From a bacterium (lineage in GTDB: Bacteria; CLD3; SB21), in the NCBI GenBank assembly GCA_013360215.1, contig JABWCP010000001.1, positions 277,144-341,143 on the forward strand: 64,000 nucleotides of DNA, given 5' to 3'. The notes under the pieces are model-generated. The model was given only the letters and a program-made list of their open reading frames with translations, was not told where the DNA came from and searched no databases. Position 1 is the first letter of the stretch. Every line of letters starts with the position of its first letter. A program made the position numbers and the translations under genes. Below are positions 48,775-64,000 of this stretch, piece after piece.

Positions 48775-49457
48775 TATTTATTGTCGTGTGGTTATTGTTG
48801 GCATTTTGGCCGATGCAAAAAAATCTGGTTGTTGAAGATTTTGAATCCGATGCACTCGGCGGTATTCCCGCCCGCTGGTATAATCGCGACGGTACAGGGC
48901 GTCCAAATTCCTATAGCGCGGATCTTCGCAGAGGTTACCAATACGAAGTTCTGTCGGAAAAGCCCGGCAACCAATTTTTACGATACAATGGATACCACGC
49001 AAAACACCTCGCGTTCCACTTTGTCAAGGATAGACATTGGTCAATTAAGAAATATCCCGTATTGACGTGGCGGTGGCGTGCATGGAAACTTCCGATAGGA
49101 GCCAATGAAGCCTTGGATGAAAAAAATGATGCCGTTTTGAGCGTGTATGTTGTTTTTGACAAAGGAAATTGGGTAAGGCCGCCGCAGGTCATTCGTTATG
49201 TATGGAGTTCGACACTCCCTATCGGAACCATACTTACAAAATCCTCCGGGCGTCAGAAGATCGTGGTCATTGCCTCGGGAAACAGAGACCTCGGCCAGTG
49301 GATCAACGTCACGCGTTCGATCTCAGACGATTATCAAAGCCTGTTCGGACATGCTGAAGTTCCTGATCCGATCTCTCTCCTCCTATTAAGCGATGCCGAT
49401 GATACGCAAACATGGGCCATTGGCGACTATGATGATTTCTCCATAGGCAGCTTATGA
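48771..49457 (+). CDS. DUF3047 domain protein
   Basis: A 228-residue exported or anchored protein, with a short hydrophobic N terminus (about residues 1-14). DUF3047 segments are VVEDFESDALGGIPARWY, LTWRWRAWKLP and IGDYDDFSIGSL. The domain looks like a carbohydrate-binding jelly roll. It overlaps the following glycosyltransferase gene by 4 bases. Confidence 0.85.
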   Translation: MIFIVVWLLLAFWPMQKNLVVEDFESDALGGIPARWYNRDGTGRPNSYSADLRRGYQYEVLSEKPGNQFLRYNGYHAKHLAFHFVKDRHWSIKKYPVLTWRWRAWKLPIGANEALDEKNDAVLSVYVVFDKGNWVRPPQVIRYVWSSTLPIGTILTKSSGRQKIVVIASGNRDLGQWINVTRSISDDYQSLFGHAEVPDPISLLLLSDADDTQTWAIGDYDDFSIGSL

Positions 49458-50599
49458 AGCCCAAGGTTCTTCACTTTAAGACAAATTTTCTCAATCCATC
49501 AGAGACGTTTATCGAACGACTTGTTACCGGCCACCAGACCTATGAGCCTATTTGCGCTTGCGCTAATCGCCGAACGCTTGCCAACAGTATCCGAACGTAT
49601 GTAATGCCAAAAGATGGTATGACGGGATTAGTCAATCGCTATGAATTGATGCTCAATCGGACACCCCGATTTCTGGATAGAATATTTGAGGATGAAAAAC
49701 CGGATATCATCCATGCACACTTCGGGTTAGATGCATACCGTATGGTACAAATATCCAAAAAAACAAAAACACCGTTGATCGTTGGGTTCTACGGATCGGA
49801 CGTCACACGACTTCCCAGAGAATTTGGATGGGAACGGCGATACGCAAGACTCGCGGCGCATGCGGACCATAGTATAGCACTATCTTCGCATATGCGTGAT
49901 CAGCTGATTCAGCTCCGGTTTCCGCCCGACAAAATATCCGTGGTTTATTTCGGCTTAGATCTAAATCGTTTTATTCATCATTTACGACCGCATGGAAATC
50001 GGATCATGTTGGTCGGTCGAATGGTGGAAAAAAAAGGGTTTTCGACCGCCCTTCAAGCTGCTCAGATACTAAAACAAGACGGCATACCGTTCGAAATGCA
50101 CTTCTACGGAGACGGTCCATTGTTGTCTTCGTTGCAGTCCTTGGTCCGGGAACGGAGCTTGCAGGATCGCGTTTCTTTTCACGGCTTGGTAAGCAATGAG
50201 CAAATACGCCTTGCGTTACATCAAAATCATATCATGATTGTGCCAAGCCGGCGTGCACGCGATGGCGATGAAGAGGGATTGCCTAATACGCTTATTGAAG
50301 CGATGGCTTCCGGTTTACCGGTTGTCGCTTCCCGACACGCGGCGATTCCGGAAGTGATCCGGCACCAAACGGACGGCCTATTGTTTGATGAAAATGACGT
50401 CCAAGCGCTTGCACTACACTTGAAGTATTTACTTGGGGCGCCAGAAAAAATGAAGAGCCTTTCCGTCAAAGCACGCCAACGCATCGAACAACTCGGTTTT
50501 TCCATTGACACGACCGTTCAAAAGATCGAAGATATTTATTCACACGTTTTGCAAAGTAAAAAATCCAAAACTCGTGATTTCACTTTCCGAGCGCAATGA
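49454..50599 (+). CDS. Glycosyltransferase family 4
   Basis: A 381-residue GT-B glycosyltransferase. The donor-binding EX7E motif is in EEGLPNTLIEAMASGLPVVAS; MLVGRMVEKKGF and FHGLVSN are typical. The acceptor is unknown. The 3' end overlaps the convergent flippase gene by 20 bases. Confidence 0.93.
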   Translation: MKPKVLHFKTNFLNPSETFIERLVTGHQTYEPICACANRRTLANSIRTYVMPKDGMTGLVNRYELMLNRTPRFLDRIFEDEKPDIIHAHFGLDAYRMVQISKKTKTPLIVGFYGSDVTRLPREFGWERRYARLAAHADHSIALSSHMRDQLIQLRFPPDKISVVYFGLDLNRFIHHLRPHGNRIMLVGRMVEKKGFSTALQAAQILKQDGIPFEMHFYGDGPLLSSLQSLVRERSLQDRVSFHGLVSNEQIRLALHQNHIMIVPSRRARDGDEEGLPNTLIEAMASGLPVVASRHAAIPEVIRHQTDGLLFDENDVQALALHLKYLLGAPEKMKSLSVKARQRIEQLGFSIDTTVQKIEDIYSHVLQSKKSKTRDFTFRAQ

Positions 50600-52067
50600 A
50601 TGCACGTCTGATCGTTTCCCGGTGAACCAAACCAAACTTCCAGCTTAACAAAAAAAATACAATCGCATAAATGACGAAGGAAATCACAAACCCTGATGCA
50701 TGCTGCGAAGCATCCAATACTCTATAGCGTATAAACCAAGTTGCCAGCCCTGACAGCGCCGCCAAGATCAGTACTTTCAGATAGTGATGGAAAGGAATGA
50801 CTTTGTAAAACGGCAACTTCATGTGATTTCCGATTCGCCGCAACGCCATGCACCAGGCGGCCATATTGGCCAGCCAGGCGGCCACAGCTGTCCCTGTAAT
50901 ACCCCACCAATACGTAAACGGAACGCACAATAAGGTGTTTGTGAGTACGAGAAATAACGACAGGAACAAAATTCCTCTTTTATCACCGAATGCCTGCAAC
51001 GCGCCGCCATAGGATGTGACACGGTGAAGCACGATCAAAGAAAACACTTGAAATGGAATAATAGACGCCATATAGGACGAGCCAAACATCAGGCAAATGA
51101 AATCTTGGGCTGAAGCGATAAAAAAAATCGTAATCGGGACGACGATCATCGTCACGTTGCGTATTGCACTATGCCACAATGCCGTTAAACGCTGCCGATC
51201 TTCATCCATAATATGACGTACAAATTGACCGATCAGTGCCGAACTCACCGCATAAGGTATCACCGCAACGATCGGAATTTCTTGCGCTCCAATATTGTAT
51301 TCCGCCAAAGCCACCGGTGTTAAAATCGCCGCCACGATAAATTTGTCCACATGTTTATTGAAACGGCTGATCAACGACGCCGAGCCGATGATAACGGAAA
51401 ATCGGATCTGCGCTATGACGGATCCTTTGGCCAAGGACTCACGATCGGGAGGCAAAATCAGGTCCATGAGATACCATGACATGACAAAACGAATGAAGGC
51501 ATATGCGGCAAGCCCATAAATAGCATAGGACAATGGAAATTTAAGAATCAGCGGGACTGCCAAAGCCAAAAGCGTCATGATGCTGGTAATAATCTGATAC
51601 CATGCTGCATAAGTTGTTCGAGCGAACGCAATAAGAATATTGGTTACCGGCCATGTCGGAACCTCCAGAATCATAACAAGAGACATCCAGGGCAAAAACT
51701 GTTTTAGATATTCAATCTGACTTTTTTCCCACTCTGCACTGAGAAACGACTCTATTATCAAGGGCAAAAAGCCTATTGCGAGCCCTACGACCAATGCCAT
51801 CAGCCCTACAATAGTGAAAGTCTGAAGGACTAAAGCGCGGCGTGCCTGAATTTCAGTTCGTTCAAAAAAATAAAAAATGCTGTCCGGAAAACCCATGGTC
51901 GCAATAAAGCGACCTACCTGAAAAATCATAAGTAAATAGCTCATCACGGCAAAATCAGATTTATCCAGCAACCGAACGATGATAATGGCTGTCAAAAGAT
52001 CAATACCCGTAGTCACAATGCCGGCAGCGGTTACGACAAATGCCTTTTTTCCTAATGCAGATGACAT
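50580..52067 (-). CDS. Wzx-like oligosaccharide flippase
   Basis: A 495-residue membrane protein with about 12-14 hydrophobic helices, of the MATE/MVF polysaccharide transporter type. It starts MSSALGKKAFVVTAAGIVTTGIDLL and keeps the ISRFNKHVDKFIVAAIL segment usual for Wzx-like proteins. It probably flips the lipid-linked glycan across the inner membrane. It overlaps the next glycosyltransferase gene upstream by 16 bases. Confidence 0.88.
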   Translation of the reverse strand: MSSALGKKAFVVTAAGIVTTGIDLLTAIIIVRLLDKSDFAVMSYLLMIFQVGRFIATMGFPDSIFYFFERTEIQARRALVLQTFTIVGLMALVVGLAIGFLPLIIESFLSAEWEKSQIEYLKQFLPWMSLVMILEVPTWPVTNILIAFARTTYAAWYQIITSIMTLLALAVPLILKFPLSYAIYGLAAYAFIRFVMSWYLMDLILPPDRESLAKGSVIAQIRFSVIIGSASLISRFNKHVDKFIVAAILTPVALAEYNIGAQEIPIVAVIPYAVSSALIGQFVRHIMDEDRQRLTALWHSAIRNVTMIVVPITIFFIASAQDFICLMFGSSYMASIIPFQVFSLIVLHRVTSYGGALQAFGDKRGILFLSLFLVLTNTLLCVPFTYWWGITGTAVAAWLANMAAWCMALRRIGNHMKLPFYKVIPFHHYLKVLILAALSGLATWFIRYRVLDASQHASGFVISFVIYAIVFFLLSWKFGLVHRETIRRAFIALGK

Positions 52068-53335
52068 AATGTACTTAATTGTTCTGCCAGCTTACTGGCG
52101 CCGTTCTCAGAGGAATATTTGTTTATTTGTTCAATCCGCGGATTGAATCTTAGAAGCTGATGGATAGCCGCGCCTTGCAAAATTTGAAAGAGGCCATCAG
52201 CCGCGTCCTGCGGCGACAGCTGGATGCCGATGCCGGTATCATGCAAGATATGGCTGATTTCAGAATTCGTCGCTAGCGACAACACCGGACGACCTATCGG
52301 CATGTAGTCCCACAGTTTCGCTGGAATAATGTCATTGCGCATTTCCGAGGCGCTTACAAGGAGAATATCATAGGTTAGCAGTTCATCAAGCATGGCATTA
52401 CCATAGACGGGTTTGTGCACCTCAAAATGCGACAAAACGCCAGCGGATTCCGCCAATATACGGTCTTGATCCGTCAGGGGTGCAAAAGAAATTATTTTAA
52501 CCGACGGGTTTATTCCGTCGTTGATTTCTTTTAAGCGTTTGAGCATGGCTATTACGGGAATGGCCGGGGACAACCATCGAAATGCACCCAAAAAAACGAT
52601 ACGAATTTCATTCGCTGATGACTTATGCGGACGCTGGGTCATTTCTTCATAAACCATATTCTCAAAACCATTATAAATAGTGGACATGCGGGACGCGCTA
52701 GCCGGATAAAATAAGCGATATCGCTCCTCGGTAACACACGACGTAAAAATGATTTTATCAGCATCGTTAATCCATCGGCGTTCTATCCTGCGGTCATAGA
52801 CTTGCGTCAGCCTGCTTCTGCGCTGATTGCGCACCGGGCATAGCATCCAGGGATCGCGAAAATCCGCTACCCACTTTACCCGTAAGGCCTTTGCAACGGT
52901 GCGTCCCAACCAATGCGAAGACCATGGATCAGCTGTGCTCCATACAACATCAGGATTAAACTGACGTGCGTAGGCTATGACCGACCGACGATGCAACCAC
53001 AGCAAAGGTAGCCATGTATCAATCGGAAACCACCGAGCTATAAATGAAAATGTCTCTTCTATACGATAAGAAGCCCCATGATTTGTCCCTGATGTGGTGC
53101 GATCGAGAGGAGTTTTCAGGGAAAGTATCGGTATGCCCTCCAGCAAGGCTATCTCTTCCTCCCCCAATCGCGATGAAGAATCGATGGTTACGATTGCCGG
53201 CTGCCAACCCAATGACTTCAACCGCACGGCCATTCGATACGGACGCTGGGACCCCACCCTCTTTCTTGGTGGAAAATATGGCGCTATCATAAGTATGCGA
53301 TGTGCGTCTTTTTTCATGACGGTTTGCGATGCCAC
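52052..53335 (-). CDS. Glycosyltransferase (GT4-like)
   Basis: A 427-residue GT-B protein. The N-terminal domain begins ILMIAPYFPPRKRVGSQRP; the C-terminal domain has KLWDYMPIGRPVLSLA, replacing the more common EAMA motif. A GTG at 53335 has GGAG 5 bases upstream; an ATG 6 codons downstream is possible. It overlaps both neighbours, so the three minus-strand genes form one unit. Confidence 0.85.
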   Translation of the reverse strand: MASQTVMKKDAHRILMIAPYFPPRKRVGSQRPYRMAVRLKSLGWQPAIVTIDSSSRLGEEEIALLEGIPILSLKTPLDRTTSGTNHGASYRIEETFSFIARWFPIDTWLPLLWLHRRSVIAYARQFNPDVVWSTADPWSSHWLGRTVAKALRVKWVADFRDPWMLCPVRNQRRSRLTQVYDRRIERRWINDADKIIFTSCVTEERYRLFYPASASRMSTIYNGFENMVYEEMTQRPHKSSANEIRIVFLGAFRWLSPAIPVIAMLKRLKEINDGINPSVKIISFAPLTDQDRILAESAGVLSHFEVHKPVYGNAMLDELLTYDILLVSASEMRNDIIPAKLWDYMPIGRPVLSLATNSEISHILHDTGIGIQLSPQDAADGLFQILQGAAIHQLLRFNPRIEQINKYSSENGASKLAEQLSTLCHLH

Positions 53336-54258
53336 AACTTCTCCGAAAATTCATAGAATGGTTTTTTCTGATGCATCCAACCAAAATGAAGCCAATACGG
53401 ACATACGCTCATAACATCTGATTTTCCCGGCCAGATGGTATGCAGATTTAGTAGTAAATGTTGAAGGGATTCGTTTTGCACGCCGCACAAGCGATGGACT
53501 TGCGGATCGGTATAATAACGGCATTGAACGTTTTGAAAATCAGCATCATGCTCGACCCAAGAAGCAATATAATCCATTTGTGGACTTTCATATCCATTCA
53601 TCCATGGAAGCAATGGAATCCCCAATCGTGCCATTGCGATGGCAAAGCTCCATTCGCACGACTCCAAAGCCCGACCTCTTTCATAAAGCCGGCTTTGAAA
53701 GTGTGTCTCGTGCTTTCTTGCAAGCATTGCCTGTGCTTCCCGGCATACGCGTTCGGTTTGTTCTGCACTCGCTGCGTAGATCATACCCGACTGAATACGC
53801 GGCAAATATCGTATTCCAAAGCGACCCATCGTTCGTCGTCTTCGATTTAGAAAAATATCGGCAAGTACGCCGAAATCTTTGGCCGCGCCAAAAAAATGAT
53901 CCGCGCGGAGATTCCCGGTAATCGTAAATTCATAGCCCGACAGTGTTTTCCATAGACGGTCCGGATTGCGGCAACAAATCATGTCACTGTCTAAAAACAA
54001 GTTGCGATCAAACGGCAAATACTGATGGATATGATGTTTGAACCCCACAATGGAACTGTGCTCGTCCGCAAGACGGTCCATAATCGTAATCTTCAGCTCC
54101 GACGCGTGTTTTGCGGCCTCAGCCAAATGCGACTCCGAAGCGATCAACGCAACCGGCCTTGTCACATCGTAACGCCGAATCGTATGAATCGCCGTGAGTG
54201 CATGCCACACGTATTTTTCATCCCCGTATGAATGAAATACGTATCCCTCTCTGTTCAC
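53314..54258 (-). CDS. GT-A-fold glycosyltransferase (GT8-like)
   Basis: A 314-residue protein. NLFLDSDMICCRNPDRLW contains a DxD motif (DSD) typical of metal-dependent GT-A transferases such as GT8. HALTAIHTIRR and LPRIQSGMIY fit this fold. First gene of the minus-strand flippase unit; the intergenic region upstream is shared with a divergent glycosyltransferase gene. Donor and acceptor are not known. Confidence 0.72.
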   Translation of the reverse strand: MNREGYVFHSYGDEKYVWHALTAIHTIRRYDVTRPVALIASESHLAEAAKHASELKITIMDRLADEHSSIVGFKHHIHQYLPFDRNLFLDSDMICCRNPDRLWKTLSGYEFTITGNLRADHFFGAAKDFGVLADIFLNRRRRTMGRFGIRYLPRIQSGMIYAASAEQTERVCREAQAMLARKHETHFQSRLYERGRALESCEWSFAIAMARLGIPLLPWMNGYESPQMDYIASWVEHDADFQNVQCRYYTDPQVHRLCGVQNESLQHLLLNLHTIWPGKSDVMSVCPYWLHFGWMHQKKPFYEFSEKLWHRKPS

Positions 54259-54541
54259 CTGCTGCTCCTCATATTTTGAATCTGTTTCCTTTCAATGCAA
54301 ATCATCTAAATAACAAAATAGTCCAATACAACGGCAAGCGCCGCAAGATTTTTCTTGCGCATGCAAGCACCGCATGGCATGAACATTTTTTTTCATCTAT
54401 CCGTTACCGGCGCATAATACATCGTTCACAAAAAGCCTACTTTCTAATATCACCGTAACACGATTTTTGATTCATTTCGGCGTACTCTTTGCGTAGCAAA
54501 TACTATGACAATTCATTAATTCATTTAAAGAAAGAAATGCC
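54259..54541. other. Divergent intergenic region in the glycan locus
   Basis: A 283-base region between two divergent transferase genes. It must hold both promoters, but I see no strong -35/-10 pair, repeat or RNA gene. Confidence 0.4.
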
Positions 54542-55756
54542 GTGCTTTCACGTTCAATGGTGTATCCGGTTACTTTTGAACCGCCGCGTATCTCTCCGAA
54601 ACCACAATTAAGGCTGGCCCTTTTTACGGGAAGTTACCAGTACATACGAGATGGTGTCGCGCTGACGTTGAACCGTTGGGTAAACTATCTTCTTTCACAG
54701 AATATCTCTGTGATGATATTCAGCCCCACGGCCAAACACCCGGCTCTGCATACAACCGGCCAACTCATTTCGGCGCCATCAATCGCTTTACCCGGTAGAT
54801 CGGAATACCGCATGGGTATTGGATTTTCGTCGTCCATGAAACGCGAGCTGGCACAATTCGACCCCAATCTCATTCACATCGCGACACCGGATTTGTTGGG
54901 AATTCGAGCGCTTGAATACGCAAAAGCTCAAGATATCCCGATGGTTATGTCATATCACACACACTTTACCGCTTATTTGAAATACTACAGACTAAATATG
55001 TTCGAGGCATCGGCATGGAAATATTTGACATGGTTTTACGGACAAGCGCGTCGAGTTTACGTGCCTACACAGTCGATGGCCGAGACTTTGGTTGACCGGA
55101 GCCTTAGCGATAAAATCGAAATTTGGCCGAGAGGTGTAGATTCTGATTTATTTCGACCGGAGATCAGAGACAATGCCTGGCGCCGTCAAATAGGCATAAA
55201 GGATGATGAAATCGCTGTGCTTTTTGTATCACGACTAGTTGCGGAAAAAAATCTGAAATTGCTCGGGCAAATTTTAACGCTCGCCATGCAAATGAACCGA
55301 CGCATTAGGCCTGTCATCGTCGGAGAAGGACCTGCCAGAAAAGAGCTTCAGAATACGTTGCCATCGGCCATTTTTTTAGGCCAACAAAATGGCAATGATC
55401 TGGCTAAGGTCTATGCGTGCTGCGACGTTTTTTTATTTCCCTCGGAAACGGAAACCTTTGGTAATGTCACACTTGAGGCTTTGGCGGCGGGCCTTCCGGT
55501 GATCGCCGCCGATGCGACCGGCAGCCGATCGCTGATCACCAACGAACATAATGGATTTCTTGCCGAACCCCTTGATGTGACAGATTTCGCAGCCAAACTG
55601 AATTTAATTTCAGAAAACCGGCAACTACGAAAGCGAATGAGCGCTCAGGCCCGTCAAACAGCTTTGCTTCGCCCATGGTCCCAGATCCATCAAAGTCTTC
55701 TGCAAAGCTATTATGACGTCCTCGCAGAAGGATTTCGCGATGAGGCCGCAGCGTGA
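54542..55756 (+). CDS. Glycosyltransferase family 4 (mannosyltransferase-like)
   Basis: A 404-residue GT-B glycosyltransferase similar in layout to GDP-mannose-dependent alpha-mannosyltransferases. LALFTGSYQYIRDGVALTL and HTHFTAYLKYY lie in the acceptor domain; IWPRGVDSDLF, LFVSRLVAEKNL and PSETETFGNVTLEALAAGLP in the donor domain. The start is a GTG. It overlaps the following gene by 4 bases. Confidence 0.92.
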   Translation: MLSRSMVYPVTFEPPRISPKPQLRLALFTGSYQYIRDGVALTLNRWVNYLLSQNISVMIFSPTAKHPALHTTGQLISAPSIALPGRSEYRMGIGFSSSMKRELAQFDPNLIHIATPDLLGIRALEYAKAQDIPMVMSYHTHFTAYLKYYRLNMFEASAWKYLTWFYGQARRVYVPTQSMAETLVDRSLSDKIEIWPRGVDSDLFRPEIRDNAWRRQIGIKDDEIAVLFVSRLVAEKNLKLLGQILTLAMQMNRRIRPVIVGEGPARKELQNTLPSAIFLGQQNGNDLAKVYACCDVFLFPSETETFGNVTLEALAAGLPVIAADATGSRSLITNEHNGFLAEPLDVTDFAAKLNLISENRQLRKRMSAQARQTALLRPWSQIHQSLLQSYYDVLAEGFRDEAAA

Positions 55757-56886
55757 TTCGCCTGTTTTTTGTATCGCATTCCATTCCGCCGACGAATGAT
55801 CTGCTCGAAAATATTGGCGGAATGCAACGTGCCAGCCTCCAATTGTTGGAAGCTCTGCGCAACGAAGTCCATTTTAATGTGTTGCCTTTTTTACTTATGT
55901 CGTCCTGGAGGTTTATCCACATTCAAACAGCCTTCTTTTTGATTAAGCTCATCTTTAGGCTTCCGATCGCAATACGTCGTCAACGTCCGGAAATCGTGTT
56001 GTTTTCAAGTATGGTTACTGCAGCCGTCATGCTGTTTATCAAGAAAAAAGGATCGTCACCCAAATATGTCGCGATCGCCCACGGGCGCGACGTGACGCTC
56101 CCCAACCCGCTGTATCAGATTATTCTCAAGTGCGTATTCAAGAAACTGGATGGTGTTATTGCCGTCTCTTCGGCCACAAAGGCAAGTTGTATGGCGTGTG
56201 GACTCTCTTCAGATCAGGTTGTGGTTATCCCCAACGCCATACCTCCCGGTTATGATACGCTCCCGATACCGCCGAAGACCATAGCCGATTTTCTTTTTCA
56301 AAATCATCATATTCCGCGCGAAGCTCGCCCCGTCTTACTGACCGTTGGTAGACTCGTCCTGCGCAAAGGTCACGCATGGTTTATCGAGCACGTGCTTCAA
56401 AGATTAGATCACGACGTGATCTATCTTATCGTCGGCGATGGCCCCGAATACGACACCATCCGCCAAACAATCGCGCGGTCACCCAAACGTCACACCATCG
56501 CTTTACTTGGCAAAATGCCCGAAGACTGGCTGCTGGGATTGTATGAATACGCGGATATTTTCGTAATGCCCAATATTTCCGTACCCGGCGATATCGAGGG
56601 CTTTGGTATCGTCTTATTGGAAGCCAATCGCGCAGGACTACCCGCCGTGGTAACCGATATCGAAGGTATCACGGATGTAGTCACCGATGGATTAAACGGA
56701 TATCGCGTCAAACAAAATGACGCCGCCGGATTTGCTAATAAAATCGATAGTTTGCTGAAAAAAAATATGAAACAAGCCAAGCCGCAAATCCAGCAACATG
56801 TCCGTGGTCATTTTATATGGCCGTGCGTGATAGAAAAATATAACCGATACTTTGCGTCGCTAAGCCCCCGCGCAACCCAATCGTAA
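55753..56886 (+). CDS. Glycosyltransferase family 4
   Basis: A 377-residue GT-B glycosyltransferase. The donor-site motif is EGFGIVLLEANRAGLPAV; VGRLVLRKGHAWF and GKMPEDWLLGLYEYADIF support the family. The start is a GTG within the preceding stop. Last gene of the glycan locus in this window; a 102-base gap follows, with no clear terminator. Confidence 0.92.
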   Translation: MIRLFFVSHSIPPTNDLLENIGGMQRASLQLLEALRNEVHFNVLPFLLMSSWRFIHIQTAFFLIKLIFRLPIAIRRQRPEIVLFSSMVTAAVMLFIKKKGSSPKYVAIAHGRDVTLPNPLYQIILKCVFKKLDGVIAVSSATKASCMACGLSSDQVVVIPNAIPPGYDTLPIPPKTIADFLFQNHHIPREARPVLLTVGRLVLRKGHAWFIEHVLQRLDHDVIYLIVGDGPEYDTIRQTIARSPKRHTIALLGKMPEDWLLGLYEYADIFVMPNISVPGDIEGFGIVLLEANRAGLPAVVTDIEGITDVVTDGLNGYRVKQNDAAGFANKIDSLLKKNMKQAKPQIQQHVRGHFIWPCVIEKYNRYFASLSPRATQS

Positions 56887-56988: not shown

Positions 56989-57510
56989 CTAAACTAACCA
57001 CAGCGCCAGTTTGAAACTACTTAATCCTAGCACGGTACCGGCCAAAATATCCGTAGGATAGTGAACCCCTAAATATACCCTAGAAACCCCCACCATGCCG
57101 GCCCAACCAAAAACGAATGGCGCGGCTTCGGGGACCACATGCGCAATCAACGATGCCATTACAAAAGCGCCGGAGGTATGGCCGGATGGAAAGCTAAATT
57201 CATCCGGCGGAACAATTTTTTGAATGACAAGTACTCCCCCGGAACAAGGTCGCTTACGTTTCAGAGTTTGTTTGGATAGCTTGTAAATTGTGAGATTGAT
57301 GGCAAAGGCCAATGCACCGATTTTCCAAATCGCCCCGGCGATAGCGGAATGTGTCCAGGATAGATATGCCGTAGCGAAAATATACGCGTGGCCGTCGCCC
57401 AACCGCGACATAGCATAAAACCACGCATGCAACACACGATGCGAAAACGTACGTGACGCGTGTATGACTAACCAATTGTCCCATTGCTGCAAGGTTTCTA
57501 ATAATCGCAT
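56989..57510 (-). CDS. PAP2-family membrane phosphatase
   Basis: A 173-residue membrane phosphatase with about five hydrophobic helices. The three PAP2 motifs are KRKRPCSGG, PSGHTSG and SRVYLGVHYPTD. Family members dephosphorylate undecaprenyl pyrophosphate or phosphatidic acid phosphates. It lies between the glycan and organophosphate loci and could serve either: lipid-carrier recycling, or phosphate scavenging. Confidence 0.9.
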   Translation of the reverse strand: MRLLETLQQWDNWLVIHASRTFSHRVLHAWFYAMSRLGDGHAYIFATAYLSWTHSAIAGAIWKIGALAFAINLTIYKLSKQTLKRKRPCSGGVLVIQKIVPPDEFSFPSGHTSGAFVMASLIAHVVPEAAPFVFGWAGMVGVSRVYLGVHYPTDILAGTVLGLSSFKLALWLV

Positions 57511-57845
57511 ATGAAACTATAAAAAAGAATTACAACGCCATAATTATCGGCTTGTTTCGGTTCGATTATATCGCAAGGTTCTCCTGCAAAATTCAAGCGA
57601 TTGTACGTATTACTGTTCCTCTTTGCCGAATCCGATGCCTATGTTCATTCACAATTCCTGTTGTGATCCGAAAACTATTATTCGTCGGCCACATCGGTGA
57701 CAGTGATATCATTCCATAATGTCATTGCAGATATGGGCATAGACAACCTAATCGTTATAGATCAATAATACAGACCTAACACACCGACATTACTCTTAAC
57801 GATAAACTAATAAACGATGAGAACCTAAATCGGAAGAAAACAATT
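57511..57845. other. 335-base intergenic region before the TonB receptor
   Basis: Divergent promoter region for the PAP2 gene and the receptor operon. TGACA (57698-57702) and TGTCA (57720-57724) face each other at 17 bases distance. They match Pho-box half-sites, but not the direct-repeat layout. I see no other feature. Confidence 0.35.
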
Positions 57846-60632
57846 ATGCGCCCCAAAGCATGCGTGCAACTTATAATGTTGACTATTCTGGTGTTCCTGA
57901 GCGTTCCAGCTTATTCCCAAACTCGTACGGGCATGGTCGGTTTTGTATCGGATGAGGACGGCGGCTTCTATTTACAGGGCGCGCTTATTACGATAGAAGG
58001 AACGGCTTTTCGTGCTGTTAGTGATCGTCAGGGAAAATTCACAATGTCATTGCCCGCCGGCAACTATGTCCTGTTGGCAAGGTATCTGGGCTACGAAGAA
58101 AAGAAAATAGAATTTACCGTCACGGATGGAAGTTTGAAAATACTTGAGGTGAAACTCAAAGGGACTGCCGTGCCGTTTTCAGAGCAGATCGTAGAAGGTA
58201 TACGCTTGGGACAAACCAAAGCGTTGAACACTCAAAAGAACAGCGACAACATAAAGAACGTCGTTTCCTCCGACTTAATTCAGCTATTCCCCGACCCAAA
58301 CGCGGCCGAAGCGCTCCAGCGATTGCCGGGCCTTTCCATACAACGTGATCAGGGTGAAGGGCGTTATGTTTTGATTCGGGGAACGGAAGCGCGTCTAAAC
58401 TCCATGATGATCAACGGTGAGAGGATCCCTTCACCCGAAGCAGAAGTGCGGAGTGTCGCACTGGATGCCATTCCGGCCGACGCGATCGCTTCGATCGAAG
58501 TCACCAAAGCGTTGACACCGGATATGGACGCAGACGCCATCGGCGGATCTGTCAATCTCATTACAAAGAGCGCATTTGACTATGACAAGCCGGTCATATT
58601 GGGTACCTTAGGAAGCGGATACAATAATCTCGTTACCGGCGGCGTATATCAGGGTGGTCTCACGTACGGTCGCCGCTTTGGTCCAGATAATAAATTCGGC
58701 CTTCTCCTCAGCGGAAGTTATTACCAAACAAATCGCGGTTCTGATAACAACGAATTCGACTACGACGATGCGGAAATCGGCGGCGGCGAAGAACAGGAAG
58801 TGCTCACCGAATACCAACTGCGCGACTATGTGATAGACCGAAAACGTATCGGAATCAGCGCCACATTAGATTATCGTCTTGACGACCTTTCCCATATGTA
58901 CTTCCGAGGCATTGTCAATGAATATAGCGATCAAGAGTATCGGCGACGCCTCATCTATGCCTTTGACGAAGGCGATTTTGACGCTGCGACAGAGACCTCC
59001 GCGTCTATTTCGGGCGCCGAAGCGGTTAGAGAACTGAAAGATCGTTTTGAAAAACAATCCATCCGTAGTTTTGCCGTGGGCGGCAATCAACATTTCAATC
59101 TTATGGACGTTGATTACCACCTGTCATACAGTTTTGCGGAAGAAAAAGAACCTCATAGCCGCTACAGTACATTTAAATTCGAAGACGGCGTTGATTTCAC
59201 GTACGATCTGAAAGATCATGATTTTCCAAAGATCAACATCACAAACAGTTCAGACATCTACGATCCAACCAAGTTTGAATTTGAAGAGTTTTCAACAGAA
59301 AAATATACGACCCAAGACAAAGACTACACCGGTTCTTTCAATATAAAAATCCCGTTTACGTTTAATGCTAAGTCCGGAATGTTCAAAAGCGGATTCAAAT
59401 ATCGCGGCAAATCCAAAGACCGTCATGTGGATATCCGCGTATATGACGGTTATTCGAGCGATTTGTATCTAGATGAAGTCCTTGGAAATTTTGAAGGAAA
59501 GGACTTCTTAAATGGAAAATACCGCGTAGGTCGCTTCCAGGACGCTAAAAAAATAAAGACGTTTTTCAACACGAATTCTGCCGGATTCGAAGAAGATTCG
59601 GACAAATCGCACGAAGAAACCGATGCGCAAAACTATGATGCGGAAGAACGCGTTTTGGCCGGATACGCGATGACAACTCTAAATGCAGGACCATGGTCTC
59701 TCTTAGCAGGATTGCGCGCTGAAAAGACCAATATTGACTACCGAGGAAACACCGTCGTATTTGACGAAGACGGTGACTATGAGTCCACCGTGGCTTCGAA
59801 TGGAAAATCTGATTATCTCAACATGTTGCCGTCACTGCATGTCAAATATCGCATCGATCAGAATACTAATCTGAGAGCCGCTTACACCAATTCGATTGCG
59901 CGTCCCGACTATTATGATCTTGTTCCGTTTCAGTCCGTTTCCCGTGAAGATGAAGAAATTGCTTCCGGTAATTCGAATCTGAAGCCTACGGTTTCCAAAA
60001 ATTTAGACCTCATGGTTGAGCGTTATTTTCAAAGTGTCGGCTTAATCTCCGGCGGATTCTTTTATAAAAAACTCAATGACTTTATTTATGCCAACGTGAG
60101 CGAGGTCTCCGGTGGTGCCTACGACGGTTACGAACAAACCGTTCCGGTAAACGGTAAAGCCGCAACATTGTGGGGCGTTGAAATGAACTGGCAACAGCAA
60201 ATGACGTTTCTTCCTTCGTATTGGAGCGGTTTGGGTGTATATTTGAATTACACTTATACGCAGTCCGAGGCAGAATTTCCTACGCGCGAAGCCGGTGAAG
60301 ACAAGGCGACATTGCCCGGACAATCTGAGCATGTAGCAAATTTTGCAATTTCGTATGAACGCGGCGGTTTCAATGGCAGAATTTCAGCTAATCTCCACGG
60401 AAAATATCTTGATGAAGTTGGCGAAACGAAGGCTGATGACATATTCTATGATCGTCATTTTCAGCTAGACGCATCCGCGAGCCAGCGATTGACGCACAAC
60501 TGGACAGCCTATCTTGAATTATTAAACTTGACCAATGCCCCGCTTCGTTATTATCGCGGATCAACGTCCCGTCCTGTACAACAGGAATTCTACTCATGGA
60601 CCGGTAAATTAGGCTTGAAATTCACATTTTAA
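57846..60632 (+). CDS. TonB-dependent outer-membrane receptor
   Basis: A 928-residue receptor for uptake of a large or scarce substrate. Residues 1-24 form a signal peptide (ends PAYSQ). A carboxypeptidase-regulatory-like domain follows (about 28-110), then the plug with LPGLSIQRDQGEGRYVLIRG and DADAIGGSVNLIT (about 125-245). The rest forms the 22-strand barrel, ending LGLKFTF with the C-terminal Phe. Next to a phytase-like lipoprotein and an acid phosphatase, its substrate may be phytate or another phosphorylated compound. Confidence 0.95.
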   Translation: MRPKACVQLIMLTILVFLSVPAYSQTRTGMVGFVSDEDGGFYLQGALITIEGTAFRAVSDRQGKFTMSLPAGNYVLLARYLGYEEKKIEFTVTDGSLKILEVKLKGTAVPFSEQIVEGIRLGQTKALNTQKNSDNIKNVVSSDLIQLFPDPNAAEALQRLPGLSIQRDQGEGRYVLIRGTEARLNSMMINGERIPSPEAEVRSVALDAIPADAIASIEVTKALTPDMDADAIGGSVNLITKSAFDYDKPVILGTLGSGYNNLVTGGVYQGGLTYGRRFGPDNKFGLLLSGSYYQTNRGSDNNEFDYDDAEIGGGEEQEVLTEYQLRDYVIDRKRIGISATLDYRLDDLSHMYFRGIVNEYSDQEYRRRLIYAFDEGDFDAATETSASISGAEAVRELKDRFEKQSIRSFAVGGNQHFNLMDVDYHLSYSFAEEKEPHSRYSTFKFEDGVDFTYDLKDHDFPKINITNSSDIYDPTKFEFEEFSTEKYTTQDKDYTGSFNIKIPFTFNAKSGMFKSGFKYRGKSKDRHVDIRVYDGYSSDLYLDEVLGNFEGKDFLNGKYRVGRFQDAKKIKTFFNTNSAGFEEDSDKSHEETDAQNYDAEERVLAGYAMTTLNAGPWSLLAGLRAEKTNIDYRGNTVVFDEDGDYESTVASNGKSDYLNMLPSLHVKYRIDQNTNLRAAYTNSIARPDYYDLVPFQSVSREDEEIASGNSNLKPTVSKNLDLMVERYFQSVGLISGGFFYKKLNDFIYANVSEVSGGAYDGYEQTVPVNGKAATLWGVEMNWQQQMTFLPSYWSGLGVYLNYTYTQSEAEFPTREAGEDKATLPGQSEHVANFAISYERGGFNGRISANLHGKYLDEVGETKADDIFYDRHFQLDASASQRLTHNWTAYLELLNLTNAPLRYYRGSTSRPVQQEFYSWTGKLGLKFTF

Positions 60633-60647
60633 TCGAGATGTAGGGTT

Positions 60648-61709
60648 ATGTTAAAAATAGTTTCAATTATGATGTTCGCCGTGTTGAGCGCTTGCTCAAA
60701 ACCGCCCATGGCGCCGGTTTCCAAAGCGGTTCATCGACCGCTCATTTCTGAAACGTTCATGACCGATCGCAATGAAGCCGACAACGTGGACGCTCCGGCG
60801 ATCTGGCATGGCCCTCACGGCGAACACTGGCTCGTTGCCACGGCAAAAAAAACCGATGGTTTGATCATCAGTGACGCGGCGACCGGAAAATTTATCAAAC
60901 GCATCGGGGGCACTGGCGCCGAACCCGGCAAGCTGCGACGCCCCAATAATGCCCTCGTTTTGGACGACATGTTATTTGTAGTCGAACGCGATAACCACAG
61001 GGTGCAGGTTTTTTCATTACCTGAATTCAAAAGCATATTCGTATTTGGAGAGCAGGAATTGAAAAAACCTTACGGCATTTCGCTTTATAAATCATCGCCG
61101 GATAGCATTGTTTGTTATATCACGGATAATTACGAATTGACCAAAGACTCAATACCTCCGCCATCCATGCTGGGACAGCGCATCCGGCAGTATCACATAA
61201 CGATGCGCTCACGAAAACTGTCCGCGACACCCGTACGGGCGTTCGGCGATACGTCGGGAAGCGGCGTTTTGTATACGGTCGAGTCCATTTACGTCGATCC
61301 GGTCTATAATCGCATCCTCATCGCAGACGAGTACGAGAGACAAAATAATATAAAAATATATACGCTAGACGGCACGTTTACCGGGCAAGTGATCGGCTAT
61401 GGCCTGTTTAAAACCCAGCCGGAAGGCATTGCCTTGTGGACGTGCGGCGACAGTGCCGGGTACTGGATCACTACGGATCAGTCCCACACCGAAAATGTTT
61501 TCCATATATTTGACCGCCAATTCCTTCAACCTGTAGCGTCGTTTTGTGCTGTCAATATTCGAAACACGGACGGGGTCGCCCTTACAACCAGATCATTCGG
61601 ACCGTTTTCAGCCGGTGCTTTCTACGCCGCGCATGATGACGGAAACATCGGCGCGCTGTCATTAAAGAGCATCCGTGATTCGACAAGGATACAATTCGAA
61701 TGCCCCTAA
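60648..61709 (+). CDS. Beta-propeller phytase-like lipoprotein
   Basis: A 353-residue lipoprotein with a perfect lipobox LSAC (Cys16). The chain follows Bacillus beta-propeller phytase in order: NVDAPAIW, TAKKTDGLIISD, KKPYGISLYKS, TVESIYVDP with ILIADE, QPEGIALW, and FYAAHDDGNIG near the end. In place of DADDPAIW the first motif has Ala where the second Asp binds calcium, so activity is uncertain. Phytases release phosphate from myo-inositol hexakisphosphate. An NHL-type propeller of other function remains possible. 15 bases after the receptor gene. Confidence 0.75.
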   Translation: MLKIVSIMMFAVLSACSKPPMAPVSKAVHRPLISETFMTDRNEADNVDAPAIWHGPHGEHWLVATAKKTDGLIISDAATGKFIKRIGGTGAEPGKLRRPNNALVLDDMLFVVERDNHRVQVFSLPEFKSIFVFGEQELKKPYGISLYKSSPDSIVCYITDNYELTKDSIPPPSMLGQRIRQYHITMRSRKLSATPVRAFGDTSGSGVLYTVESIYVDPVYNRILIADEYERQNNIKIYTLDGTFTGQVIGYGLFKTQPEGIALWTCGDSAGYWITTDQSHTENVFHIFDRQFLQPVASFCAVNIRNTDGVALTTRSFGPFSAGAFYAAHDDGNIGALSLKSIRDSTRIQFECP

Positions 61710-62653
61710 TTTCGCACGTACGACACATGATCCTTATATCCGCACTGGTCACGGGCTCTGTGGAATGGGTCGGTTGTTTTACAAAGCCATCTCCGGGATT
61801 TGATTCGCGCGAAACATTAGAATGCATCGTTCTGGGGGATTGGGGGCGGCAAGGCCAATTTGGGCAACAGGTGACAGCGAACCGCATGGCCGAAGTAGCG
61901 CATACCATCGGCGCTGATTTCGTTATTTCGACCGGCGACAATTTTTACGATAACGGTGTGACGAGCGTGGATGATTCGCTGTGGTTCGCTTCATATGAAA
62001 ATATTTATGCGCACAAGTCGCTGCAAATCCCATGGTATGTGGCGCTTGGCAATCATGACTACCGCGGGAATCCGCAAGCGCAGATAGAGTACTCTACCCG
62101 GAGCCGACGATGGCGCATGCCTTCGCGGTACTTCCATATAGATACCACGATCGGAGGCGCTTCGCTGCGGCTGGTGATATTGGACACCAATCCTTTTATT
62201 CATGAATACTACACCGACAAAAAATATCAATCCGTTTCCGGTCAGGACACGGCGGCGCAGTGGCGTTGGCTTGAAAATACGCTGGCAACTGCAACAAGTG
62301 ATTGGACGATTGTGGTCGGGCATCACCCGGTATATTCCGCGGGTACTAAACATGGAAATACATCCGAATTGATTACGCGGCTTGAACCGATGCTCCAGAA
62401 ATACCGCGTACCGATATACCTTGCGGGCCACGAACACGATCTGCAACACTTAAGTCATAATCAGATCAATTACTTCATATCCGGAGCCGGCTCTTCGCTG
62501 CGCCCGACCGGCACTTCAAACGAATCCGTTTTTTCTCTATCACAAAACGGTTTTCTACGCCTTTCTATTGCCAAAAAAAGCATACGCGCCGCGTTTATAG
62601 ATGTAAACGGGGCCATCGTCCATGAGGTTAGAATTTCCAACCCTGCTCATTGA
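61700..62653 (+). CDS. TRAP-like purple acid phosphatase (metallophosphoesterase)
   Basis: A 317-residue exported phosphatase resembling tartrate-resistant/type 5 acid phosphatases. The metal-binding motifs are present in order: GDWG, STGDNFYDNGV, ALGNHDYRG, VVGHHPVYSAG and LAGHEHDLQHL. The N terminus is hydrophobic (residues 8-26) and may be a signal peptide or a lipoprotein signal. It overlaps the phytase-like gene by 10 bases, so both proteins probably act on the same phosphoester substrate. Confidence 0.9.
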   Translation: MPLISHVRHMILISALVTGSVEWVGCFTKPSPGFDSRETLECIVLGDWGRQGQFGQQVTANRMAEVAHTIGADFVISTGDNFYDNGVTSVDDSLWFASYENIYAHKSLQIPWYVALGNHDYRGNPQAQIEYSTRSRRWRMPSRYFHIDTTIGGASLRLVILDTNPFIHEYYTDKKYQSVSGQDTAAQWRWLENTLATATSDWTIVVGHHPVYSAGTKHGNTSELITRLEPMLQKYRVPIYLAGHEHDLQHLSHNQINYFISGAGSSLRPTGTSNESVFSLSQNGFLRLSIAKKSIRAAFIDVNGAIVHEVRISNPAH

Positions 62654-62747: not shown

Positions 62748-64000
62748 ATGGCTTTCGATAAAGCGTTTGAATCCGTAAACCGTCTCGTGCAGGATTTTCG
62801 TGCGCAAGAAGCGTATTATCTCGACGCCAAATATCAGGAGCAGGAAGCGCGTAAGGATTTCATTGACAAATTTTGGATCGCTCTCGGGTGGGATGTCAAT
62901 CATGAGATTCAAAAAAATCCGTACGAACAGGAAGTGCGCATCGAAAATGCCGTTCGCACCGGTGCTTCGCAGCGGCGCGCCGATTACGGTTTTTATCTCT
63001 CCCCCAATTTCCGCGACCCCAAGTTTTTCGTAGAGGCCAAAAAACCCTCACGCAGCATCGCCAATCCCGATGATTATTTTCAAGTCAATCGCTACGGATG
63101 GAGCCAGCAAACGCCCGTCGCCGTACTCACGGATTTTGAAGAATTGCATATCATTGACTGCCGATTTAAGCCGCATATCGGCACGGCACTGGATCGTAAG
63201 ATCAAAGCCTTTCGTTATACCGACTATACCGATGCCGAAAAATTTGCCGAAATCTACTGGTTATTTAGCCGCGAGGCCGTCGCCACCGGATCACTGGAAA
63301 AGTACGCTGCCGCACTACCCCGCCCCAAAGGCAAAGCCGCACAAAAAGGTCTTTTCAAAGCGGGTGTACAGCCTATTGACGAAGCCTTTCTTGAGGAATT
63401 GGACGAATACCGCGTCATCTTGGCCAAAGCCTTCAAAAAATCCAATCCCGATCTTGAAGGCGAAGCGCTCACCGAAGCCGTGCAACGGACCATAGACCGT
63501 CTGGTGTTCATACGATTTCTGGAAGACAAATCCATCGAAGACTATGAAGTGCGACACTACGGCGACAGCGGTCATGCATGGAAAAAGTTTCTCGCCCACT
63601 GTCAACGGCTGGAGCCCAAATACAACGGCCTTGTATTCAAACCGCATCCCGTAATTGACGGCCGTGCGTTTCATGCACCGGATGAAGAAGACTTCAAGGC
63701 GATTTGCGCCAAACTTTCCGATCCCCATGCCGTGTACGACTTTGATCAGATCCCTATCGCTATTCTCGGTAGTATCTACGAACGCTTTCTCGGTAAAGTC
63801 GTCCACACGACCGCCAAACGCGCCGTCGTCGAAGAAAAACCTGAAGTGCGCAAAGCCGGCGGCGTGTACTATACGCCGGAGTATATCGTGCGCTACATCG
63901 TACAAAATACCGTAGGCAAACTGATCGAAGGCAAAACGCCGGAAAGCATCGCCAAAATGGCTTTTGCGGACATCGCATGCGGGTCAGGTTCGTTTTTGAT
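62748..64000 (+). CDS. Type IIG restriction-modification enzyme, N-terminal part (cut by window edge)
   Basis: A 417-residue fragment that continues past the window. The N-terminal part has a PD-(D/E)xK-like nuclease signature: RRADYGFYL followed by KFFVEAKKPSRS (Asp, Glu, Lys). A helical connector follows. VYYTPEYIVRYIV and ADIACGSGSFL (the start of the SAM-binding motif I) mark the N6-adenine methyltransferase domain, as in Eco57I-type enzymes. The ATG has GGGG about 10 bases upstream. PglX-like or other BREX-type enzymes are less likely because the nuclease motif is present. Confidence 0.88.
   Translation, partial: MAFDKAFESVNRLVQDFRAQEAYYLDAKYQEQEARKDFIDKFWIALGWDVNHEIQKNPYEQEVRIENAVRTGASQRRADYGFYLSPNFRDPKFFVEAKKPSRSIANPDDYFQVNRYGWSQQTPVAVLTDFEELHIIDCRFKPHIGTALDRKIKAFRYTDYTDAEKFAEIYWLFSREAVATGSLEKYAAALPRPKGKAAQKGLFKAGVQPIDEAFLEELDEYRVILAKAFKKSNPDLEGEALTEAVQRTIDRLVFIRFLEDKSIEDYEVRHYGDSGHAWKKFLAHCQRLEPKYNGLVFKPHPVIDGRAFHAPDEEDFKAICAKLSDPHAVYDFDQIPIAILGSIYERFLGKVVHTTAKRAVVEEKPEVRKAGGVYYTPEYIVRYIVQNTVGKLIEGKTPESIAKMAFADIACGSGSFL

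Follow-up and report, generated by a model that had tools for sequence, protein, structure and literature searches.

Loci in which a TonB-dependent receptor lies directly beside a β-propeller phytase are already known from Bacteroidetes and Proteobacteria. In F. johnsoniae, the receptor Fjoh_1368 and the phytase Fjoh_1367 are both induced by phosphate depletion (PMC8115612), a receptor-phytase pair has been published for Citromicrobium (PMC3400609), and the PhoB regulon of Caulobacter includes a phytase together with TonB receptors (PMC11208175). In this literature, the case for TonB-dependent uptake of organic phosphate is made from gene neighbourhoods and from induction, and biochemical proof is not given.

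The window analysed here, a stretch of 64,000 nucleotides from a genome of 3.72 Mb in 56 contigs, carries a related locus at 57846-62653. Three genes follow one another on the + strand, encoding a TonB-dependent receptor (928 aa; 57846..60632), a lipoprotein (353 aa; 60648..61709) and a TRAP-type (type 5) purple acid phosphatase (PAP; 317 aa; 61700..62653). The receptor and lipoprotein genes are separated by 15 bp, and the lipoprotein and phosphatase genes overlap by 10 bp, an overlap that would vanish if the phosphatase started at an internal ATG at 61727. An earlier note on this DNA had listed the same genes at the same coordinates. As in the F. johnsoniae and Citromicrobium loci, a receptor of the same kind stands directly beside a propeller protein; unlike there, this protein is a divergent relative of phytase and a TRAP-type phosphatase comes third. 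The operon type is known, whereas its middle protein falls in a divergent branch of the phytase family that is apparently undescribed.

We consider it likely that the operon scavenges phosphate from an organic source, which is probably phytate or else lower inositol phosphates. The receptor would carry a phosphate ester through the outer membrane, and the membrane-anchored lipoprotein would capture the ester and, judging by its sequence, probably remove phosphates with calcium. The purple acid phosphatase would then take phosphate off the products, and the free phosphate would enter via the Pst transporter. These steps presume that the proteins lie on the appropriate side of the membrane.

The receptor and its relatives

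The receptor consists of an N-terminal carboxypeptidase-regulatory-like (CarboxypepD_reg) domain (residues 32-114), a plug (residues 132-234; PF07715, E 2.1e-15) and a barrel (residues 441-895; PF00593). It belongs to TIGR01782, with an E value of 6.8e-165 and 550.7 bits against an NCBIfam cut-off of 310. The siderophore/haem receptor model CirA yielded only 35.3 bits against an equivalog cut-off of 745.

To avoid anchoring on a phosphatase, we searched 297 sampled Bacteroidota genomes for receptor relatives (E<=1e-120) and read the neighbours at the 43 loci found, with simple longest-ORF gene calling and seven phosphatase profiles. A β-propeller phytase adjoins the receptor at 30 of the 43 loci (23 canonical, 7 divergent) and is the immediate next gene at 29, with gaps of -20 to 261 bp. 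Some phosphatase adjoins the receptor at 36. The neighbours are thus phosphatases, not iron-related genes. Among the seven loci lacking a phosphatase, one lies at a contig end, two (L213 and L216, both close relatives) adjoin hydrolases judged by eye to be sulfatase-like, and the others have neighbours with no obvious link to phosphate. Receptor relatives on plasmids adjoin a phytase, a PAP or a histidine-type phosphatase. The last of these, possibly another kind of phytase, lies beside the same receptor type on Flammeovirga and Aureibacter plasmids (L044, L048). A phosphate role of the receptor is well supported by these neighbourhoods, and iron or cobalamin is an unlikely substrate. The earlier note had proposed an organic-phosphate operon that receptor relatives importing siderophores or cobalamin would contradict; as the relatives are linked to phytase, that reading is supported.

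The sulfatase-like neighbours at L213 and L216 fit another reading, in which the operon serves a non-phytate organic phosphate (phosphorylated glycans, nucleotides or glycerophosphodiesters, for example) and the propeller has been re-tuned accordingly. We regard this as possible, though we hold it only tentatively. The receptor tree speaks against it. In this quick tree, which contains some long branches, the window receptor falls into a 16-row clade (SH-aLRT 95) comprising its own paralogue, nine divergent-propeller receptors (the window's included) and six canonical-phytase receptors. Some of the closest relatives are thus partnered with canonical phytase and others with the divergent propeller, suggesting a common substrate class. 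The divergent-propeller receptors of L170 and L171 are placed outside this clade.

The paralogue (L010:6618-9473; 40% identity to the window receptor) belongs to this genome too. It lies some 3 kb upstream of a complete phosphate uptake and control set, consisting of pstS-terC-pstC-pstA-pstB-phoU followed by a PhoB/PhoR-like pair; apart from PstS and PstC, these genes were named by eye. A divergent gene for a possible porin lies in between. This location of the paralogue is in keeping with a phosphate role. The earlier note had suggested a search for PhoB.

Kinship and fold of the middle lipoprotein

The lipoprotein carries a lipobox, L-S-A-C, at residues 13-16 (60684..60695, + strand). It stays below the Pfam cut-off for phytase, with no match to PF02333, and single-sequence searches with it lead to NHL repeats. 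Its kinship emerged through relatives. The entry point was a Psychroflexus orthologue (L072) with 47% identity, and a profile built from these two sequences was searched against 396 Bacteroidota genomes. Clear divergent members occur in 12 genomes at 203-462 bits (Psychroflexus itself, 767). Canonical phytases follow, scoring 38-70 bits across some 300 positions, whereas proteins matching only through the NHL-like blade reach at most 33 bits. Two intermediate proteins, L146 and L154, were found as well.

In a tree of the aligned proteins, all 12 divergent members group in a single clade (support 100/100) on a long stem of 2.85 changes per column. Eight of them match PF02333 at E<=0.01, and two exceed its cut-off (33.7 and 26.5 bits versus 21). 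Profile-profile comparison with canonical phytases gave an E value of 8e-30 over 292 columns, and 1.7e-11 with only three phytases of other groups. Judged from these sequences, the clade is a distant sister of the β-propeller phytases. It is apparently an undescribed branch of the phytase family, and we found no paper on it in the open-access literature. The phytase-like label of the earlier note is borne out in this way, even though the window protein itself does not match PF02333.

The AlphaFold2 model (pLDDT 86.4) shows a six-bladed propeller like that of Bacillus phytase. Its first PDB match is Bacillus phytase 1qlg (E 1.3e-14, TM 0.70) with NHL propellers close behind, a fold match that is supporting rather than fully independent as the input alignment contained phytases.

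Could the propeller instead be an NHL-repeat protein unrelated to phytase, next to a receptor that imports something else? NHL structures rank first by profile, one blade matches every NHL repeat, and the ScyF NHL model of NCBIfam matches at 3.7e-5. The Pfam NHL match (E 0.0084) is one sub-threshold repeat of 16.5 bits versus 20. These matches arise because a single blade, the second (residues ~80-124), is NHL-like; NHL repeats above the cut-off in several blades were not found. An NHL identity is at odds with the phytase-range profile scores, the PF02333 matches across the clade, the conserved active-site residues described below and the best PDB match, and we rejected a pure NHL protein on the first two counts. 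We thus consider this reading very improbable and largely refuted. A better alignment with NHL proteins, which the earlier note had named as evidence against its proposal, applies to this one blade but not to the rest of the propeller.

Active site and partners of the divergent clade

Phytase motifs have been defined as DA[ATE]DDPA[ILV]W and NN[VI]D (PMC4017775). In the window protein, the first reads DNVDAPAIW (residues 45-53; 60780..60806, + strand) compared with DAADDPAIW, and the second NNAL. The DD pair has thus lost its second Asp, and NNxD its only one. Numbered as in Bacillus phytase, with residue identities checked on the sequence, Ala49 replaces Asp56 while the Asp55 equivalent is kept.

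Across all 12 members, the equivalents of Asp55, Lys76, Arg122, Tyr159, Glu211, Glu227, Glu260, Gln279 and Asp314 are invariant. This amounts to 9 of 11 active-site columns, compared with 22 invariant columns among all 283 (hypergeometric P 9e-10). In the window protein, Lys76 and Arg122 correspond to K67 and R114. Part of this residue list, and the role assignments other than those cited below, we take to be those of the TS-Phy structures. Three further positions are replaced in every member: Asp56 by Ala, Ser or Thr, Lys179 by Tyr or Phe, and Asp258 by Glu or Gln. The Ca1/Ca2 ligand Asp308 is absent in the clade, as it is in canonical Bacteroidota phytases. In Bacillus phytase, Asp56 helps to hold a structural calcium, Ca3, in the central channel, while Ca6 is coordinated by Asp258, Glu260 and Gln279 (PMC11943157). 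Compared with Bacillus phytase (PF02333; 1poo, 3amr), the window protein shares the six-bladed fold and nine active-site residues, but is a lipoprotein with an NHL-like second blade, in which Asp56, Lys179, Asp258 and the Ca1/Ca2 ligands are replaced or absent.

The loss of a calcium-binding Asp reported in the earlier note is therefore real. The note's suggestion of a protein that binds instead of cleaving is weakened, however, since the lost residue belongs to the structural Ca3 site and conservation of the active-site set extends throughout the clade. With nine of the eleven columns invariant, a dead enzyme is disfavoured. As far as sequence can tell, the replacements are a systematic re-tuning under constraint, and we think it more likely that the protein is a phosphoesterase, re-tuned but probably active, than that it only binds.

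Eleven clade loci were examined besides Psychroflexus. The receptor is directly adjacent in eight, upstream in seven and downstream in L170; in L171 it lies two genes from the propeller. The partner phosphatases vary. They are TRAP-type in the window and L072, PhoX in L165 and L167, a plant-type PAP in L170, and a plant-type PAP plus PhoA in L171. No PF02333 phytase was found elsewhere in the window or Psychroflexus genomes, so the divergent protein occupies the place of the canonical phytase there. In Psychroflexus, an IS21-like transposase pair directly follows the propeller gene (L072:9392-11708).

These observations bear on a variant in which the same operon would use the lipoprotein as a non-catalytic, SusD-like capture protein for the receptor, leaving cleavage to the purple acid phosphatase alone. 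Replacement of the Asp56, Lys179 and Asp258 equivalents in the whole clade, the constancy of the divergent protein as receptor neighbour and the occurrence, at many loci, of a separate phosphatase whose kind varies are all in keeping with it. However, nine invariant active-site residues exceed the obvious needs of binding alone, and at L211, L212, L214 and L215 no phosphatase of the scanned families adjoins besides the divergent protein itself. We consider a pure capture role unlikely and favour a catalytic lipoprotein. The systematic active-site changes, together with the general phosphatases PhoX and PhoA among the partners, also count towards the non-phytate substrate discussed above. It is conceivable, on balance doubtful, that the clade represents a new family of enzymes or binding proteins derived from β-propeller phytases, its calcium site re-tuned and its substrate not phytate. 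One group of TonB receptors would then have it as a constant partner, alongside a varying phosphatase (TRAP-type, PhoX, PhoA or plant-type PAP).

The purple acid phosphatase and the surroundings of the operon

The best solved relatives of the phosphatase are mammalian tartrate-resistant (type 5) enzymes, with human TRAP (1war) at 4.9e-47. Alignment to 1war shows all seven metal ligands (D47, D80, Y83, N118, H208, H244 and H246), and the type 5 motifs GDxG, GDxxY, GNH, VxxH and GHxH are present. The enzyme thus keeps the whole domain, but differs from tartrate-resistant PAP in being bacterial, carrying an export signal and lying in a TonB-receptor operon. We found no open-access paper pairing TRAP-type phosphatases with TonB receptors.

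When 84,980 species genomes were scanned with the phosphatase as anchor, 80 loci were returned, 63 with both flanks. Among these 63, the order receptor-PAP-phytase occurs in 24, the direct receptor-phytase-PAP order of the window in two, and receptor-PAP-divergent propeller in one, Psychroflexus. Four more loci, L055, L058, L076 and L107, follow the window order, but in them a further gap or gene sets receptor and phytase apart. Alteromonadales loci (Catenovulum L042, Pseudoalteromonas L046) share the three families in one operon with the window; unlike in the window, the phosphatase follows the receptor directly and the phytase, a canonical one with two domains, comes last. In L042, L045 and L046, all Alteromonadales, a divergent GGDEF-AraC regulator pair precedes the operon. 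One contig labelled Rickettsiales (L051) carries the module with Bacteroidota-type sequences, reflecting either transfer or mis-binning.

Among nine genomes of the window's own phylum, the propeller occurs only in the window genome, no second operon copy was found, and phosphatase relatives elsewhere are at most 31% identical. Base composition of the locus gave no hint of recent foreign origin. The propeller query matched nothing on plasmids (tblastn), and a single-sequence propeller scan of genome contigs likewise gave no match.

Upstream, a PAP2 membrane phosphatase gene (56989..57510, - strand; PF01569, 2e-21) had been named in the earlier note as a possible contributor. We reject its membership of the operon, as it is divergently oriented on the opposite strand and has no homologue in 123 related loci; of the note's interpretation, this part falls away. 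Glycosyltransferases and a flippase-like protein at 49454-56886 likely form a surface-polysaccharide cluster, to which PAP2 may belong.

The intergenic region 57511..57845 (+ strand) holds a weak sigma-70-like site at 57740-57769 that is not above chance, and promoter and terminator scans of the operon were near chance. A PHO box scan upstream found no E. coli-type box beyond chance level, with an E. coli consensus that may not be the host's. This result counts against the scavenging reading, as do the missing PF02333 match of the lipoprotein, its NHL-like blade and the replaced Lys179 and Asp258 equivalents. Regulation by phosphate may be expected.

Directly downstream (62748-64000, continuing in L012:1-2756), a gene with HSDR_N and N6-methylase domains forms a 917 aa open frame in L012 and probably encodes a single-chain restriction-modification enzyme; the gene that comes next reads as DUF3800-like. 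Further on, outside the window (L012:3904-5233), a small gene, an XRE-like regulator and a SecB-like gene resemble, by eye, a toxin-antitoxin-chaperone system.

The divergent clade offers a compact, testable set of a receptor, a dedicated lipoprotein and an exchangeable phosphatase. Because several of its propellers score below the phytase model and are missed in standard annotation, the use of organic phosphate is probably undercounted in genomes of this sort.
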